53,843 nucleotides of DNA, taken from contig MHAY01000036.1 of NCBI GenBank assembly GCA_001804705.1, positions 236-54,078 of the forward strand, read 5' to 3'. A program made the translations under genes and the position numbers. A model generated the notes under the pieces. That model was not told the DNA's origin. It saw only the letters and a list, made by a program, of their open reading frames with translations, and did no database searches. Below are positions 22,208 to 48,101 of this stretch, in pieces. The DNA comes from Ignavibacteria bacterium RIFOXYC2_FULL_35_21. Its GTDB lineage: Bacteria > Bacteroidota > Ignavibacteria > Kapaibacteriales > UBA2268. Numbering within the stretch: position 1 is the first letter of the stretch; every line of letters begins with the position of its first letter.

Positions 22208-22319
22208 AATCAATTGCGAATTCTTACAAAATGTCACCCTGAGTTTATCAAAGGGGGAAAGATGCTTGGACTTCGCTGATAATGACACATTACAAAAAAA
22301 GTTGATATTTTATGAATAG

Positions 22320-22339
22320 CCACGACTTTTAAGTTGTGG
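22320..22339 (+). repeat. Single copy of the nos-array hairpin family
   Basis: This 20-bp near-perfect inverted repeat, CCACGACTTTTAAGTTGTGG, is preceded by GAATAG. That matches the core of the seven-copy array between nosL and nosD read on the minus strand. The repeat family is therefore dispersed and not specific to the nos locus. Confidence 0.7.
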
Positions 22340-22387
22340 TGTGGTTCCTCGCCACAATTCGGAATTTATGCCCTTTAGAGAAAGAAT

Positions 22388-22416
22388 GTAGAGACAGGTC
22401 TGAGACCTGTCTCTAC
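22388..22416. repeat. Perfect 29-bp palindrome
   Basis: The inverted repeat GTAGAGACAGGTCT / AGACCTGTCTCTAC is perfect around one central base. It belongs to the same family as the repeat at 19971. It could form a strong hairpin in either transcript of the convergent genes, but no T-run follows. Confidence 0.7.
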
Positions 22417-22616
22417 TTCAGAACACTGTGGCTATAAACCTCTACTATCCGAAGATAGTGGGTATTCAAAAAAAATAAAGCAAGAATTTATTTTGTCATA
22501 TTTTTGTTTTACCGTCGCTTCGGCGGTGGCCATAGACTCAGTATGACATTGAATAATACGGTTTAAATTTCTATATTTAATATCTATAATTATTTCAGGG
22601 TTTGAGTGTGTGTAGT

Positions 22617-39290: not shown

Positions 39291-39997
39291 TTCCCATTTG
39301 ACTCCATGAGTGAGGCAATAGTCCTTTCAAGATTGATTTTCCCTTTATCCTCGATTAAACCTTTGACAGTACCATTGTAAATAATTTTTCCTTCGAGAAT
39401 GAAAATAAGATTTTCTGCAAGTTCTTCTATATCACTCATTATATGAGAAGTGATTATAACAGTCTTTTCTTTCTTCTGCTCCTTTAAAATTTTATCTTTA
39501 AGCTTACTGCTCGAGATAGGGTCGAGTCCTGCAGTTGGCTCGTCGAGAATAAGAATGTCAGGCTGGAACATGAATGCAAGTGCGGCATTCACTCTTTGAC
39601 GCGTACCACCCGAAAGAGTTCGCATCATTTTATTAAGTTCATTATTGAGATTATAAGAATCAAATAATTCCTTGTCAACTCCATTTTTTCCTGCCCTTAA
39701 ATCGTTGAGCATGTTTATAAGTTCGACAACTCGTAAATTTTCCGGAAAGCGTGCAATCTGGGGCATGGAGCCAATGTGATTCTTGTATTCAACTTCTTTG
39801 CTGATATCTTTATTATCAACAAAAATTTTTCCTGAGTCAGGCTTCATTAATCCGAGTATGATTTTAATCAATGTAGTCTTACCTGAGCCGTTAGGCCCTA
39901 TTATAGCAGTAATTTTACCTTTCTCAATCTCAAGATTAATATTCTTCAACACATGAAGCTTGCCGAAACTTTTATTTAAACCTTCTATTCTTATCAT
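39287..39997 (-). CDS. nosF: NosF ABC transporter ATPase
   Basis: This 236-residue ABC ATPase has Walker A GPNGSGKTT (about residue 34), signature LSGGTRQR, Walker B ILILDEP and the switch His in ITSH. It overlaps nosD upstream and nosY downstream by 4 bases each, the canonical nosDFY arrangement. It powers the NosY permease during assembly of the CuZ site. Everything expected is intact. Confidence 0.94.
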   Translation of the reverse strand: MIRIEGLNKSFGKLHVLKNINLEIEKGKITAIIGPNGSGKTTLIKIILGLMKPDSGKIFVDNKDISKEVEYKNHIGSMPQIARFPENLRVVELINMLNDLRAGKNGVDKELFDSYNLNNELNKMMRTLSGGTRQRVNAALAFMFQPDILILDEPTAGLDPISSSKLKDKILKEQKKEKTVIITSHIMSDIEELAENLIFILEGKIIYNGTVKGLIEDKGKINLERTIASLMESNGK

Positions 39998-41250
39998 TTC
40001 ACTCTTCTCATCAATGGCTGAACATCTTCAAGTTTAACAGGGGTTATTGCAGGAACAACTTTTTCTGCTACTTCAAGAATTTGAATGAACAGGCTTCTCA
40101 GCAGAATCATTGCAGGTGAATTATTCTCGACAATTGCGGAGAACAAGCCTACAGGTTTATACGGGACATCGCCGTATCCGTCATGGTTAAGGTCGTAACC
40201 TGAATATTTACTCCAGTAATTTTTTCGGAATGTATTAAAATTATGCTTACTGCCGGTTGATACATCAAATGTATTATCAATAAAATTGTTGTCAGTAAAA
40301 TCATTATCCATCGAATTTGACCTGATTTTCAATGCCCATCCATTATCAATAAAATTATTCTTTTCAAGTTTCACTCTCATCGAATTTTCAAGATATATGC
40401 CTGTTGAATTTTCATGGAATAAGTTAAATTTTATCTCGCTGTCGTTAATATCTTTAAGAAGTAAACCGTAGGATGCGGGCCCCCAGTTATTCTCAAATTT
40501 GTTATTGTACATGTGAATGAATTTGGTGTACATAACGGCAACACCTCCGACATTTCTTCTGAATATATTTCTCTTATATACACATCTGTGAGAAAACATA
40601 AAATGCAGGCCGTAACGGAGGTTGTCCTCGCTTATATTATTTTCAATTGTCGAATTTTCTGAGAATTCAAGATAGATACCATCTCTTTGCTTACTGATTT
40701 TATTATTTATAATTGTAATATTTTTACTGTACCACAGATGCACACCGTTTCCTGAAGTTGTCTCCGACTTGCTTGTTCTCCCAACAATAGTATTGCTATC
40801 AATTATGCAATCAGCACCAAAAGCTATGTAGATTCCAAAATAATTATACAATATTTTATTTCCTTTTATTATACAATTCTTTGCACTGTCAATTTTAATA
40901 CCCGCATATTCCGAAACAAAGCTCATGGCTGAGTTTTTTATCACAAGACCTTCTATTCTTACTCCATCAGCCCTGATGTGGAATAAACCGGATTTGAATT
41001 GGGCATCAACTACAGGGAAATCCTCTCCGATAATTTGCACACTCTTATTAATTTCAATATCTCTTTCCTTATAATAACCTTTTTTTACAATTAATCTGTC
41101 TCCGATTTGACACAGTCTCAGTCCCTTTTTTATACTATTTACATTCCCGTTTTTATCAACGATAATATCCCTTGCTGAAAGGCTTGTTTGCAGAAGGGTT
41201 ATTGTTGCTAATAAAAAAGCTAATATTAAAATTTTATATTCTGATTTCAT
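39994..41250 (-). CDS. nosD: NosD, periplasmic N2O reductase maturation protein
   Basis: This 418-residue protein has a signal peptide (about 1-26) and a right-handed parallel beta-helix made of repeated CASH/PbH1 turns (NSTIENNISEDN, NNKFENNWGPASYGLLL, NFIDNGWALKIRSN and similar). It ends with the nos-typical YWSKYSGYDLNHDGYGDVPYKP segment. It works with NosF and NosY in the periplasm for CuZ maturation. It begins immediately after the hairpin-repeat array that separates it from nosL, so its expression may be tuned independently of nosZ. Confidence 0.94.
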   Translation of the reverse strand: MKSEYKILILAFLLATITLLQTSLSARDIIVDKNGNVNSIKKGLRLCQIGDRLIVKKGYYKERDIEINKSVQIIGEDFPVVDAQFKSGLFHIRADGVRIEGLVIKNSAMSFVSEYAGIKIDSAKNCIIKGNKILYNYFGIYIAFGADCIIDSNTIVGRTSKSETTSGNGVHLWYSKNITIINNKISKQRDGIYLEFSENSTIENNISEDNLRYGLHFMFSHRCVYKRNIFRRNVGGVAVMYTKFIHMYNNKFENNWGPASYGLLLKDINDSEIKFNLFHENSTGIYLENSMRVKLEKNNFIDNGWALKIRSNSMDNDFTDNNFIDNTFDVSTGSKHNFNTFRKNYWSKYSGYDLNHDGYGDVPYKPVGLFSAIVENNSPAMILLRSLFIQILEVAEKVVPAITPVKLEDVQPLMRRVK

Positions 41251-41284
41251 TTAAAATATTCTTAGTTATTTTTCCCATGAATAG

Positions 41285-41366
41285 CCCCTATCTTCAGTTA
41301 GGGGAAAATGGCACAAATATAAAGTGACTTTAGTCACTTAACTATATTTTAAGGGGATAAATCCCC
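41285..41366. repeat. Three different hairpins at the nosD-proximal edge
   Basis: Three inverted repeats lie in tandem: CCCCTA/TAGGGG (41285-41304), AAGTGACT/AGTCACTT (41322-41339) and GGGGAT/ATCCCC (41353-41366). The last leads straight into the seven-unit array. They are read through on the nos transcript between nosL and nosD. Confidence 0.75.
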
Positions 41367-41833
41367 GTTGGATTTTTTCTTCATACTCCAGGACTTAAAA
41401 GTCGTGGCTATTCATTTTCAAAGATGGATAAATCCCTGTTGGATTTTTTCTTCATACTCCAGGACTTAAAAGTCGTGGCTATTCATTTTTAAAGATGAAT
41501 AAATCCCTTCGTTTTTTCTTCATACTCCACGACTTAAAAGTCGTGGCTATTCATTTTCAAAGATGGATAAATCCCTGTTGGATTTTTTCTTCATACTCCA
41601 GGACTTAAAAGTCGTGGCTATTCATTTTCAAAGATGAATAAATCCCTTCGTTTTTTCTTCATACTCCACGACTTAAAAGTCGTGGCTATTCATTTTCAAA
41701 GATGGATAAATCCCTTCGTTTTTTCTTCATACTCCACGACTTAAAAGTCGTGGCTATTCATTTTCAAAGATGAATAAATCCCTTCGTTTTTTCTTCATAC
41801 TCCACGACTTAAAAGTCGTGGCTATTCATTTTA
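41367..41833 (-). repeat. Seven-copy tandem hairpin array between nosL and nosD
   Basis: Seven units alternate between 71-bp and 68-bp versions. Each contains a 20-bp inverted repeat at 41388, 41459, 41527, 41598, 41666, 41734 and 41802 (first base of each). Four copies (41527, 41666, 41734 and 41802) have the perfect palindrome CCACGACTTAAAAGTCGTGG. Three have CCAGG in place of CCACG, giving one mismatch. Units share TTTTTTCTTCATACTCCA before and CTATTCATTTTCAAAGATG after. The array abuts the nosL stop codon. A single relative is at 22320, so this is a dispersed REP-like family that expanded here. Confidence 0.9.
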
Positions 41834-42301
41834 ATTATCCAGCCAATTCTTTTTTACCAAAGATTTAACTTCATTCCAATTAAGAATGTTTCCACCATGT
41901 TGATTCATACTCTTCTTGGCTTCATTAATGTTTGAATAACCTGAAAGGAACTCACCCATCGGGCTTCTGAGATTTTCGCTGTGAAGATAGAAGGATTCAT
42001 CAGCTTTCAGAAAGTTTCCCGGATGATAATAATCCGTAATCCAGCAAGAAAGTATATCCCCGCTTGAAATTACTCCGCTTTGCAAAAAAGCAGCGAGACA
42101 TTCTATGGAATCGAACTTTTCCAATTTTCCTTTTTTGGTAATTAATTCAGTTCCGAACTGCTTTTCGACTATTGACATCTTGCAGTATGAGCACATGTCT
42201 TTGCCATAATCAATCGGCTCCGGTTCACGGCTGCAAGCATTAATAAGGGTAGCGGATAATATCAGTGATAACATTAATATTATTATTTTATTTATTCTCA
42301 T
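41831..42301 (-). CDS. nosL: NosL copper-chaperone lipoprotein
   Basis: This protein of about 156 residues has a lipoprotein signal (lipobox near INAC) and the NosL metal motif DMCSYCKMSI, followed by FDSIECLAAFL. It delivers copper to the N2O reductase apo-enzyme in the periplasm or outer face. I prefer ATG 42301, because it directly follows the upstream gene's stop with GAGG about 9 bases before. The ATG at 42316 would overlap that gene. The stop is the first base of the hairpin array. Confidence 0.92.
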   Translation of the reverse strand: MRINKIIILMLSLILSATLINACSREPEPIDYGKDMCSYCKMSIVEKQFGTELITKKGKLEKFDSIECLAAFLQSGVISSGDILSCWITDYYHPGNFLKADESFYLHSENLRSPMGEFLSGYSNINEAKKSMNQHGGNILNWNEVKSLVKKNWLDN

Positions 42302-42302
42302 T

Positions 42303-42893
42303 TTACACAGCCTCATCTTTTTTACTTTTAAAAATTGTCATTATTACAACAAATAATCCTATTGCAAATACAGCGAAAATTATCCACCCTGCAATGTCAG
42401 GCATTGATGTCGCATAAAAATTCATTATCTGCTTTGAGCCGATTAGAGGAGGCTGATATGACATTCCGGGAATTTTCAGTGCTGCATCGGGATTGAGATG
42501 ATGCCCGTAATCGTACTCCCATTGCCAGAAATCATACATGCCTGCAACTCCAATAATAAAGAATATAATCATCCATATATATAATAATATTTTCTTACCC
42601 GATATTCCTGCTATTAAGCCAAGTAGTATTAATGCACCCATAATAAATGGCATGTATGTTAATTCTGAAATCGAATCAGGTATGATTTTATTCATTCCAA
42701 TATAATGGTTCAATGCGTTTATATTTTTCAAATCATGTTCTTTCTCTCCCCTGATGTCATTGATATAAATCTGCATTCCCATTCCTTCTGGATATTGCGG
42801 GGCATCGAGCGATATGTACCATATAGGTAGAAAATATGATGATATCAATAATAAAGAGGAAATGACTATCAAAATTCTGAGATTCTTTTTCAT
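42303..42893 (-). CDS. NosB-like membrane protein of the nos cluster
   Basis: This 196-residue integral membrane protein has about four helices (near 5-25, 78-96, 100-120 and 165-187). Two loops look conserved: YPEGMGMQIYINDIRGE with LNALNHYIGM-like sequence, and FWQWEYDYGHHLNPDAALKIPG. It occupies the NosB position of clade II clusters, directly after nosZ. Its role is unknown but essential-looking by conservation, perhaps electron transfer or maturation. nosL starts at its stop. I leave the symbol blank because NosB homology is by position and topology. Confidence 0.78.
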   Translation of the reverse strand: MKKNLRILIVISSLLLISSYFLPIWYISLDAPQYPEGMGMQIYINDIRGEKEHDLKNINALNHYIGMNKIIPDSISELTYMPFIMGALILLGLIAGISGKKILLYIWMIIFFIIGVAGMYDFWQWEYDYGHHLNPDAALKIPGMSYQPPLIGSKQIMNFYATSMPDIAGWIIFAVFAIGLFVVIMTIFKSKKDEAV

Positions 42894-43048
42894 TTTATTT
42901 GCCTATTCATATTTTTTTATCCGGTTAATCACTCTTCGACAAACTCAGAGTGACAAACGTAATACAGAGCTTAGTCGAAGTATAAACATGTATCATTAGA
43001 TTCAGTATTTATTATTTAATTTAATTATAATTTAATTTAAATCATGTA

Positions 43049-43070
43049 GGGACACAACATGCTGTGCCCC
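43049..43070. repeat. Dispersed palindromic repeat between nosZ and nosB-like gene
   Basis: The imperfect inverted repeat GGGACACA/TGTGCCCC around ACATGC resembles the palindromes at 19971 and 22388. It lies in the 195-bp gap between nosZ and the nosB-like gene and would form a hairpin in the nos mRNA. Confidence 0.55.
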
Positions 43071-43088
43071 TGCCATAAAAAATATTTA

Positions 43089-45050
43089 TTATTTCGAGCC
43101 ATTATAGCTTATAGGTACATTCGTATTTGAAACACGAATGTATCCTGACATTTCCTGGTGCAATGCAGAGCAAAAATCTGTGCAATAGAAGGGATAAACC
43201 CCCACTTCTTTTGGTTTCCAGACTAAAGTTCTCGTTTGTCCGGGCATCACAAGAAGTTCGGAAAATTCCGCTCCTAATATTGCAAAACCATGTGGAACAT
43301 CCCAGTCCTGCTCGAGATTTGTCGTGTGTATATATACATTATCACCGACTTTGACACCCTCGATATTATCAGGTATAAAGTGGCTTCGGGTCATTGTCAT
43401 ATAGACATGGACATTATTTCCTTCACGCACAACCTTAGCTTCCTTCTCGCCTTTTGCGGCATACGGATGTTTATTCTGTTCTATTGGGAAAATCTTTTGT
43501 GAATTTTTCATCAATAATTCAGCCGGAATAGCCTGCGCATAATGTGGTTCGCCGATAGTCGGGAAATCCAGTAAGAGCTTCATCTTATCACCGCTGATGT
43601 CAATCAACTGTGCCGACTGGCACATCTCGGGACCAGTTGGTAAATACCTGTCCTTTGTGATTTTGTTTAATGCGACTACATATTTTCCCCATGGTTTGGC
43701 GCAATCTCCCCCGGGAATCATCAGGTGGCCGATTGAATAATAGGAAGGAATTCTGTCAACAACCTGCCAAGTTCCGATTTTCCATTTAACTATTTCCGAA
43801 GAAATAAATGCAGAAGTATAACCATATCCTTGGCCGTCAAATTCCGTGTGTAATGGGCCTAAACCGCAATCCTTAACTTCACCGGCAATAACTGCATCAT
43901 ACTTTAATATCGGTATGCCTTCGGCTTCGCCGTCGAATTGCTTGTTCTCGATTGCTTTGAGCATTTTTGAGAATGAGTGAACAGGTATCATTGCCGCAAG
44001 CTTTCCTCCGCAGGCAATGTATTCACCAGTCGGGTCAACATCAACTCCATGAGGTGATTTTGGTGTTGGTAAATAGTAAATTAAGCCGGGGACATCCTTT
44101 GGGTCAATAACTTTTACACTTCGGAGTTTCTCGGATGTAGCAGATTGTGTCTCTTCATTATAAATATTATGAAAATAATTTGCCGGTATAGTCTTGAACT
44201 TACCGGCGGCAACTGCTTCTTCGGCTTTTTTCCAATTCACGGCGGCAATAAAATCCTTGTCATTCTTGGAGGCATTGACTTCAAGCAGAGTAGTAGCCTG
44301 TTCCGAATTGTAGCAAGTGAAGAATGACCAACCGTTTGAGGGGCCCCTGCCGGAATGTGCCAAATCATAATTAAAACCAGGAACAATAATCTGAAAAGCT
44401 ACTGACATTTTGCCTGAACCCTGGTCAACCTTTATATAAGATAATGCGCCTTTAAAATACTTTTTATATTCTGCTATAGGGACATCGCTTTGAGGATAAG
44501 GAACGCTGAATCTCGTTGCGGCAACGACATACTCAGTGTTAGGAGTTGTAAAAGCCGAAGCATGATTGCCGCCTGTATTTGGGATTTCAATTATTTCGGC
44601 AGTCTCAAAAGTTTTCAGGTCAATTCTCGCAATTCTCGGAGTATTATTACCATTAATAAAAATCCACCTTCCGTCAGGCACTCCGTTGGTTTGTGAAAGT
44701 TCCGGATGGTGGGCATCGTCCCATGGAATGAAGCCATGGCTTGTCATAAGCATTGGTTTGGTTTCCTCGGTATAGCCGTATCCGTTTTCCGGATTCTGTG
44801 AATACACGGAAATAACCTTAAACAATCTACCCGAAGGAAGCCCATAAACAGAAACCTGTCCGCTGAAGCCGCCCGACATGAAACAGTAGAACTCATCATA
44901 AGTTCCGGGTGCTATATAGACCTTGCCTGCGGCATCACTTTCGACCATGCCTCTGTTTCTGCCTGATTTACTGCATGCAGAAATAATAACAACTAATGCA
45001 ATGATACTAAGTGCGGCTAACCACATTTTGGTATTACTCAATCTTTTCAT
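43089..45050 (-). CDS. nosZ: Nitrous-oxide reductase NosZ (Sec/lipoprotein, clade II-like)
   Basis: This 653-residue two-copper-centre enzyme reduces N2O to N2 in the periplasm. An N-terminal lipoprotein-type signal (about 1-26, ending ISAC) replaces the Tat signal of clade I. A seven-bladed propeller carries the CuZ histidines (DAHHPELSQ, NHASAF, YFHNIY, SPHGVDVD, PLHTEFDG). The C-terminal cupredoxin has the CuA motif with Cys623, Cys627, His631 and Met634 (CTDFCSALHQEM). AGAGGA precedes the ATG. It follows the cytochrome c gene and precedes nosB-like, nosL and nosDFY on the minus strand. Confidence 0.97.
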   Translation of the reverse strand: MKRLSNTKMWLAALSIIALVVIISACSKSGRNRGMVESDAAGKVYIAPGTYDEFYCFMSGGFSGQVSVYGLPSGRLFKVISVYSQNPENGYGYTEETKPMLMTSHGFIPWDDAHHPELSQTNGVPDGRWIFINGNNTPRIARIDLKTFETAEIIEIPNTGGNHASAFTTPNTEYVVAATRFSVPYPQSDVPIAEYKKYFKGALSYIKVDQGSGKMSVAFQIIVPGFNYDLAHSGRGPSNGWSFFTCYNSEQATTLLEVNASKNDKDFIAAVNWKKAEEAVAAGKFKTIPANYFHNIYNEETQSATSEKLRSVKVIDPKDVPGLIYYLPTPKSPHGVDVDPTGEYIACGGKLAAMIPVHSFSKMLKAIENKQFDGEAEGIPILKYDAVIAGEVKDCGLGPLHTEFDGQGYGYTSAFISSEIVKWKIGTWQVVDRIPSYYSIGHLMIPGGDCAKPWGKYVVALNKITKDRYLPTGPEMCQSAQLIDISGDKMKLLLDFPTIGEPHYAQAIPAELLMKNSQKIFPIEQNKHPYAAKGEKEAKVVREGNNVHVYMTMTRSHFIPDNIEGVKVGDNVYIHTTNLEQDWDVPHGFAILGAEFSELLVMPGQTRTLVWKPKEVGVYPFYCTDFCSALHQEMSGYIRVSNTNVPISYNGSK

Positions 45051-46853: not shown

Positions 46854-46965
46854 ATTACGATAATTTCGTAATGAAATACTCGTAACGATAATTTCGTAAT
46901 ATTTCTTGTTTTTATCAAGATATTTTATTATTATTGCGATAATTTCGTAACGATAATTTCGTAAT
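46854..46965. promoter_or_regulatory. Four palindromic repeats upstream of the ATPase gene
   Basis: Four copies of the core CGATAATTTCG start at 46858, 46886, 46937 and 46951. The first is fully symmetric as TTACGATAATTTCGTAA (46855-46871), extended by A...T on the outside. Copies 2 and 4 read TAACGATAATTTCGTAAT, and copy 3 is truncated on the left. Spacings are 28, 51 and 14 bp. They sit within 120 bp before the ATG at 46974. They look like binding sites for a dimeric DNA-binding protein, possibly the ATPase's own winged helix. Confidence 0.75.
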
Positions 46966-46973
46966 AAATAGAT

Positions 46974-48101
46974 ATGAAACAAGAAAATCCCTTTTTAATA
47001 ACAGGTTATCAATCACCTGAATTTTTCTGTGACAGGAAAAAAGAGATTGAATTGCTAAAGTCTTATGCGCAAGATTCAATGCATACAGCGTTGTTTTCGT
47101 CACGGCGTCTCGGAAAAACTGCTTTGATATATCATTTGATGTATCATCTCAGGAAGGAAAAAATAAAATGTATGTACTTTGACCTTATGCCAACAACTTC
47201 TATTGAAGACTTCGCATATCATTTTGCCAAATCATTTTTCAATCAAAGAGCAAGTATATCACAAAAATATCTGCACAAGATTAACCAAATGCTGAAAGCT
47301 TTTGTGCCTTCATTAGCTGTTGACCCGGCTACAGGGCAACTAAGCTTTGAATTTAAGTTGAACAAAGCCGAAGAAATATATAATGACATTGAAGTAATTT
47401 TTGACATAATAAAAAAATCAAAAGAAAAATATTTAATAGCATTGGATGAATTTCAACAAATTCTGAATTATCCCGCACAAAATTTTGAGGGTTTTCTGAG
47501 AACACACATTCAATTTATGAAAAATGCCTCTTTCATTTTCTCGGGTAGTAAGAAACATCTTCTTCTATCAATATTCGGTGATTATTCAAAACCTCTGTGG
47601 CAAAGCTGTGCTTTCATTGAACTTAAACCGATTGACAAAATAATATATTCGGATTTTATACAAAATAAATTTAAAATTTTCGGAAGAACAATTGAAAACC
47701 CGGCATTGGATTTTATTTATGATTCAACAAGAGGAATCACATACTTTGTCCAGCTTTTCTGTAATTTTTTATTCAAGGAAACAAACGGAAAAATAAATTT
47801 AGAGACTTCGAAGAAAACCCTCGATAAAATTGTAACAGAGAGAGAAAGCTATTTTATTAATTTGCTGGAATTGCTAACACAGAAACAGATTGATGTTTTA
47901 ACGGCAATATCAATTGAAAATGGAATTGACAAGCCTTTGGGTAATAAATTCATTAGTAAGCACAAGCTTGGTGCGGCAAGTACTGTGAAATCCGTTTTGG
48001 ATGTACTTGTAAATAAAGAAATCATCAATCATGATAACGGTAAATATCATGTAGCCGACGTACTTTTATCTGTATGGCTCAAAGGAAGGAAAGGATATTA
48101 A
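46974..48101 (+). CDS. ATPase_2-family (archaeal-type) STAND ATPase with C-terminal winged helix
   Basis: This 375-residue P-loop ATPase of the archaeal-type ATPase_2 family has the phosphate loop in SSRRLGKTALIYH (about residue 42) and Walker B YLIALDEFQQIL (about 155). A sensor-like SGSKKHLLLSIF follows. The C-terminal winged-helix region (about 300-370) ends KYHVADVLLSVWLKG, typical of these proteins. No effector domain is attached. The gene is preceded by four palindromes, pointing to autoregulation. Family function is largely unknown; links to mobile elements and defence have been suggested. A large methyltransferase gene follows 210 bp downstream. Confidence 0.87.
   Translation: MKQENPFLITGYQSPEFFCDRKKEIELLKSYAQDSMHTALFSSRRLGKTALIYHLMYHLRKEKIKCMYFDLMPTTSIEDFAYHFAKSFFNQRASISQKYLHKINQMLKAFVPSLAVDPATGQLSFEFKLNKAEEIYNDIEVIFDIIKKSKEKYLIALDEFQQILNYPAQNFEGFLRTHIQFMKNASFIFSGSKKHLLLSIFGDYSKPLWQSCAFIELKPIDKIIYSDFIQNKFKIFGRTIENPALDFIYDSTRGITYFVQLFCNFLFKETNGKINLETSKKTLDKIVTERESYFINLLELLTQKQIDVLTAISIENGIDKPLGNKFISKHKLGAASTVKSVLDVLVNKEIINHDNGKYHVADVLLSVWLKGRKGY

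Follow-up and report, generated by a model that had tools for sequence, protein, structure and literature searches.

A hairpin array in a nos operon as a probable tandem expansion of a REPIN/MITE-like element with a likely new kind of transposase partner

Why should a nos operon carry a dense array of hairpins between nosL and nosD? The window analysed here (the whole stretch of DNA, 53,843 nt) holds such an array, for which the original prediction offered two explanations: that it sets the ratio of the enzyme to its maturation factors through RNA processing or termination, or that it is simply a REP expansion. Its position between nosZ/nosL and the maturation genes nosDFY, as had been claimed, agrees with the Pfam matches of the surrounding genes:

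43089..45050, minus strand: nosZ (PF18764 nos_propeller, E 3.5e-34)
41831..42316, minus strand: nosL (PF05573, E 4.4e-13), upstream of the array in the operon
39994..41250, minus strand: nosD (PF05048, E 7.6e-40), downstream of the array in the operon

The two genes after nosD match an ABC ATPase and an ABC-2 permease in Pfam, as expected for nosF and nosY. Between nosZ and nosL there is a 196-aa ORF (window 42303-42893) that apparently encodes a membrane protein and has no Pfam match at E 1e-5. Elsewhere in the window (46857-46964), two short repeats with a 14-bp period (ACGATAATTTCGTA) are found directly before the ORF at 46974-48101.

The array occupies 41277-41829 and adjoins the end of the nosL ORF at 41831. 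It is composed of one complete palindromic element of ~139 bp, followed by six extra tandem copies of the right half of this element:

41277..41415, plus strand: complete miniature element (covariance model R1, 109.9 bits, E 3.8e-19; sequence)
41285-41304, plus strand: hairpin L (sequence)
41322-41339, plus strand: hairpin A (sequence)
41353-41366, plus strand: hairpin B (sequence)
41388-41407, plus strand: hairpin R (sequence)
41355..41833, plus strand: seven tandem right-half units (TRF, unit split and R1 scores)

The complete element reads TGAATAG tag, hairpins L, A, B and R, and CTATTCA; unit 1 is its own right half, units 2-7 are extra, and the last bases of the final unit overlap the end of the nosL ORF. 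The units are, in order, 71, 71, 68, 71, 68, 68 and 62 bp long. The array had been described as three distinct hairpins followed by seven units of 71 or 68 bp, starting at 41285 and leaving nothing but hairpins in the gap. The array, its units and its place stand, with some corrections: the true start is 41277, where the ATGAATAG tag begins (41285 is the first base of the first hairpin); the three leading hairpins exist (CCCCTATCTTCAGTTAGGGG, with one mismatch, AAGTGACTTTAGTCACTT and GGGGATAAATCCCC), but the third itself opens unit 1; the two lengths hold for six units, but not for the last; and 26 bp beside the nosD start lie outside the array. The hairpins counted as up to ten stem-loops are likewise present, but those of all three units of type A (1, 2 and 4) are imperfect, each with a G-G mismatch.

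By two linked differences, TTGG/CTTCG and CCAGG/CCACG, the units fall into two types in the order A A B A B B B; in units 2-7 their starts alternate between GGAT and GAAT. TRF reports a 68-bp period (6.9 copies, 94% matches) as well as a 139-bp period (3.3 copies, 97% matches). The alternating starts and the 139-bp period support duplication of pairs of units, so the proposal of two unit types duplicated together holds up, and dimer duplication inside the nos array is likely, judging from its sequence. R1, a model of 26 copies with those of the window left out, gives 45.7-47.1 bits for each of three half-unit pairs of the array; together with the 109.9 bits above, these scores identify the nos array as a single whole element with six further right halves, and the array is not a chance pattern. 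Could the number of units be an artefact of assembly? The genome of the window (G000) is a draft (4.15 Mb, 105 contigs), its relatives named below are MAGs, and near-identical units of 68-71 bp are such that assembly could affect their count. But the linked, alternating differences are not what an assembler would invent, and two half-units occur independently at the same site in a related genome (G001, see below); we consider an artefact highly improbable.

The array is one member of a dispersed family. When used as a query against G000, it gave 41 matches, 34 of them within its first 138 bases; the extracted copies show that the common element is mostly 130-137 bp long, with the layout TGAATAGCC, hairpin L, spacer, hairpin A (GACTTTAGTC), AT-rich middle, hairpin B (GGATAAATCC), spacer, hairpin R, GGCTATTCA. 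The consensus fold of the 26-copy alignment is a 7-bp terminal inverted repeat (TGAATAG/CTATTCA) closing around four hairpins. Its terminal stems covary: 98.4% of the cells are standard pairs, seven pairs are changed on both sides, and the covariation is 0.115, against 0.043 for shuffles and at most 0.038 for slid controls, while the number of further standard pair types is not above that of shuffles (10 versus 10.0). The first seven of the eight consensus tag positions are invariant in the 26 copies. As six of its seven pairs are invariant, the closing stem is supported by complementarity and not by covariation.

The window holds a second element of the family:

22312..22469, minus strand: second family element (R1, 73.2 bits, E 4.5e-12; sequence)

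This bears out the suggestion that a related copy at 22320 marks a dispersed family, as do the matches to the right-end hairpin in G000: 93 with at most three mismatches (none for the reversed control), of which seven are in the nos array, one at 22.3 kb and 85 elsewhere; no two of these 85 form a same-strand pair within 220 bp. In the 22312-22469 element an unrelated palindrome (GTAGAGACAGG...CCTGTCTCTAC) sits between the end hairpins in place of the inner hairpins, and a second element (L028 1414-1528) carries a similar exchange (GTAGGGACACAG...CTGTGTCCCTAC); it looks as though a GTAG-tagged repeat was inserted or swapped into both. A segment of up to ~75 bp (L215 7227-7302) is found again next to several G000 elements, suggesting a further repeat family that is often a neighbour of this one.

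Comparison with the same site in relatives bears on the first explanation. In the closest relative, G001, whose nosL is 87% identical, the nosL-nosD gap (~238 bp, estimated) contains the same element with two half-units. In the two other congeners, G002 and G003, the gaps are about 101 and 90 bp and hold no element. Among 17 more distant genomes with both genes in the locus (two loci lacking a nosD match were left out), the estimated gap is at most 32 bp in 14, so that nosL and nosD nearly abut, and 89, 143 and 225 bp in the other three. The comparison of copy number that had been proposed thus yields seven units in G000, two half-units in G001 and none in G002 or G003; the element is kept at nosL-nosD in one of three congeners and is not a conserved regulatory element of nos. 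An element variable among congeners, in a gap between genes that abut further off, indicates insertion and tandem expansion, not a conserved operon device, although G002 and G003 could have lost a nos copy instead of never having had one. Half-unit expansion is not special to nos, as another G001 element has its left half tandemly repeated (72-bp spacing).

A regulatory role would have the stem-loops stall 3'-to-5' decay or end transcription, such that nosZ and nosL exceed nosDFY; the malE-malF REP sequence is a precedent. The array does lie inside the operon, between nosL and nosD, the transcript would carry up to ten stem-loops, and some units fold better than their shuffles (z -3.0 for unit 41495-41565). 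But units 1 and 2 do not clearly do so (z -1.2 and -1.7), the hairpins of units 1, 2 and 4 are mismatched, and the same family occupies many other intergenic places, in addition to the empty site in two of three congeners and the abutting genes further off. As for termination, between 41.1 and 42.0 kb the nos strand has a single, weak terminator-like site and the opposite strand has six, and the terminator role on the nos strand was rejected. Rfam has a single hit in 39900-43200, at E 0.69, whose 19.9 bits fall far below the gathering score of 230; it was rejected. The array is probably not a built-in control switch, and we regard the proposal that it sets the enzyme to maturation factor ratio through RNA as unlikely; an incidental effect of the array on the nos mRNA is possible, but unlikely as the reason for its presence.

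All 32 elements found in 367 kb of G000 lie between ORFs (391 of 4000 random placements, 9.8%), as do 24 of 26 in G001 (381 of 4000, 9.5%); the stretches were picked for holding elements, so these figures gauge placement and not density. Like the nos copy, 21 of the 32 G000 elements are between co-directional genes. R1 matches number 135, 116, 64 and 63 in G000-G003, which belong to one genus (both strands, among the matches listed, hence not exact copy numbers), and 4, 5, 23 and 22 in G005, G006, G007 and G009, from other genera of the family; there are none in 16 of the 24 genomes searched, including all nine order-level ones and seven of the 11 family genomes outside the genus. An exact hairpin scan of a genome collection found 59 stretches, whose MAG titles name Ignavibacteria, Ignavibacteriae, Candidatus Kapaibacterium, Bacteroidetes, one Saprospiraceae and one 'bacterium BMS3Abin03'.

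Six other sites, again in stretches picked for holding elements, are comparable on both sides between G000 and G001, and five are filled in both genomes, so they do not demonstrate recent movement; the sixth (C44:16823) is filled in G000 and empty in G001, with edges that can be placed only roughly. Such shared occupancy, the high copy number and the intergenic placement are also what one would expect if a chromosome-level role (e.g. binding gyrase or nucleoid proteins) kept the family, the nos array being one such site. We find this very doubtful, as R1 matches vary about twofold within the genus (among the matches listed), the family is absent from the seven family genomes mentioned above, and the stem differs between genera. 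The reading we favour, and judge likely, makes the array a miniature mobile element of the REPIN/MITE kind that is non-autonomous and has had one of its halves tandemly expanded. The alternative 'simply a REP expansion' is supported by the dispersed intergenic family, its mobile-element anatomy, the variable presence and copy number in close relatives, and a transposase-bearing relative.

This relative is found in G003: a unit of 585 bp whose ends and subterminal hairpins are the same and whose centre holds an HUH/Y1 tnpA gene, the only Y1_Tnp match of that genome. Read on the tnpA strand, it consists of TGAATAG, hairpin, spacer, GGCTTTAGCCACTTA, tnpA, TAAGTGGATAAATCC, spacer, hairpin and CTATTCA. 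The arms of the unit score 29.5 and 37.5 against the consensus of the short elements (maxima of 2000 shuffles: 9.5 and 10.0), and in sequence the short elements look like the 585-bp unit minus the gene between hairpins A and B. The TnpA protein (147 aa, TTG start) passes the IS200 model NF033573 of NCBIfam (65.4 bits, cut-off 55) and fails the RAYT model NF047646 (31.2 bits, cut-off 80); its best solved relative by sequence is ISHp608 TnpA (E 2.5e-06). It has the motifs DHIH, WQ and YIKNQEEHH (Y---Q--HH, class 1 core), and its motifs and length, rather than a tree, suggest subclass 1.2 of TnpA(Y1).

The search for REP-associated tyrosine transposases that had been recommended gave a mixed result in G000: PF01797 finds six Y1_Tnp matches, but none is flanked by this exact hairpin. 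There is no GAATAGCC hairpin at the examined loci of the six, and we rejected the G000 genes as direct cognates; the nearest is an GAATAACC hairpin beside a tnpA gene at C72; the TnpA of this gene is 59% identical to that of G003, and its tag is related while the stem differs. A cognate tnpA gene may be present in G001 or G002, where three of seven and three of five Y1_Tnp places, respectively, were examined.

Inverted hairpins flank tnpA not only in G003 but also in G007 and G006, and the stem differs by genus. With at most two mismatches, the stem of the genus is matched 83, 42, 27 and 22 times in G000-G003 and never in G006 or G007; the stem beside the G007 gene is matched 25 times in G007, once in G006 and nowhere in the genus; and the stem beside the G006 gene has two matches in G006, both at that gene, so G006 is no example of a dispersed family. 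The stem next to tnpA is that of the dispersed copies in two of the three genera tested. The stem beside the C72 gene is both dispersed and tandem in G000, with eight places ~140 bp apart at C7:40045-41085, which exceeds the nos array in length. In this bacterial family, arrays of short hairpins occur on either side of many IS200-like tnpA genes (e.g. at L032, L188 and L189), each of which has its own stem.

We also compared the flanks of 34 distinct TnpA homologues, selected among the collected loci for their similarity to the protein of G003 (every one has Y---Q--HH), with those of 473 control ORFs, which come from G000 and G001 only; some flanks end at contig ends. A 13-mer is common to both flanks in 28 of 34 (controls: 17 of 473). 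A stricter test of hairpin recurrence gives 12 of 34 (controls: 8 of 473); because it passes over the clearest cases, the genes of G003 and G007, the 13-mer test was added.

A plausible history would run as follows. Two inverted TGAATAG-tagged terminal hairpins enclosing two more would be what is left of an IS200-like unit after loss of its transposase gene. The enzyme that moves copies in trans, or once did, would be an HUH/Y1 TnpA bearing subclass 1.2 motifs, and it would recognise the hairpins at the ends while the DNA is single-stranded. The nosL-nosD gap may have received one copy, most simply before the window species and G001 split, and the right half of that copy, with about ten flanking bases, could then have multiplied by slippage or unequal exchange to two units in G001 and seven in G000. 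The nos placement looks incidental, which warns that a hairpin array in a greenhouse-gas operon, however striking, should not be read as regulation. A REPIN-like family is also given a concrete partner among the transposases, with a form in which the same ends enclose the gene, so that the origin of REP-type repeats from IS200-like elements becomes testable. Titles and abstract openings from the literature (few from subscription papers) include no recognised account of this repeat family or of repeats of subclass 1.2 TnpAs, which is weak evidence of absence.

How does the family compare with known systems? MITEs are non-autonomous derivatives of insertion sequences, and the short elements keep both ends of a transposase-bearing unit (the 585-bp unit of G003) while the gene is missing. 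They differ in their tandem half-units and in stem-loop ends that are more REPIN-like, and no target duplication was seen in the one filled/unfilled pair (C44:16823 of G000 versus G001, with its roughly placed edges). The Pseudomonas REPINs with their RAYTs, as described in the part of PMC3116915 consulted, are also inverted pairs of tagged hairpins around a spacer, extragenic and dispersed, with tandem clusters whose units include flanks and, in some genomes, a single-copy Y1 transposase nearby. Our elements likewise consist of two inverted palindromic units in one hairpin-rich element (26-copy alignment and consensus fold) and are numerous and extragenic (93 matches versus 0; 32 of 32), but their tag is TGAATAG, there are two further central hairpins, only one half is tandem, and the transposase fits the IS200 model and not that of RAYTs. 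The GTAG/CGTC-tagged REP families and TIRtrons (PMC3733652, in the portion available) share with them tagged stem-loops, head-head dimers, structured spacers and a tyrosine transposase flanked by repeats; the tag here is neither GTAG nor CGTC. We lean towards the view that, in this bacterial family and perhaps in wider Bacteroidota, the IS200-class Y1 TnpAs that show subclass 1.2 motifs are a second lineage besides RAYTs that builds dispersed, REPIN-like hairpin families, each TnpA with its own stem, often behind a GAATA tag, and with copies that can become tandem arrays, here in a respiratory operon. The TnpA of G003 resembles subclass 1.2 as far as the sections of PMC6006769 at hand describe it: 147 aa (148 aa in the table there), DHIH, WQ, YIKNQEEHH and a Bacteroidetes-related group. 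That subclass is reported there as generally without terminal secondary structures, whereas the genes described here are flanked by inverted hairpins (G003, G007 and G006; shared 13-mers in 28 of 34 versus 17 of 473) and, in two of the three genera tested, accompanied by a dispersed family, which would therefore be a new and likely substrate for this group of transposases.
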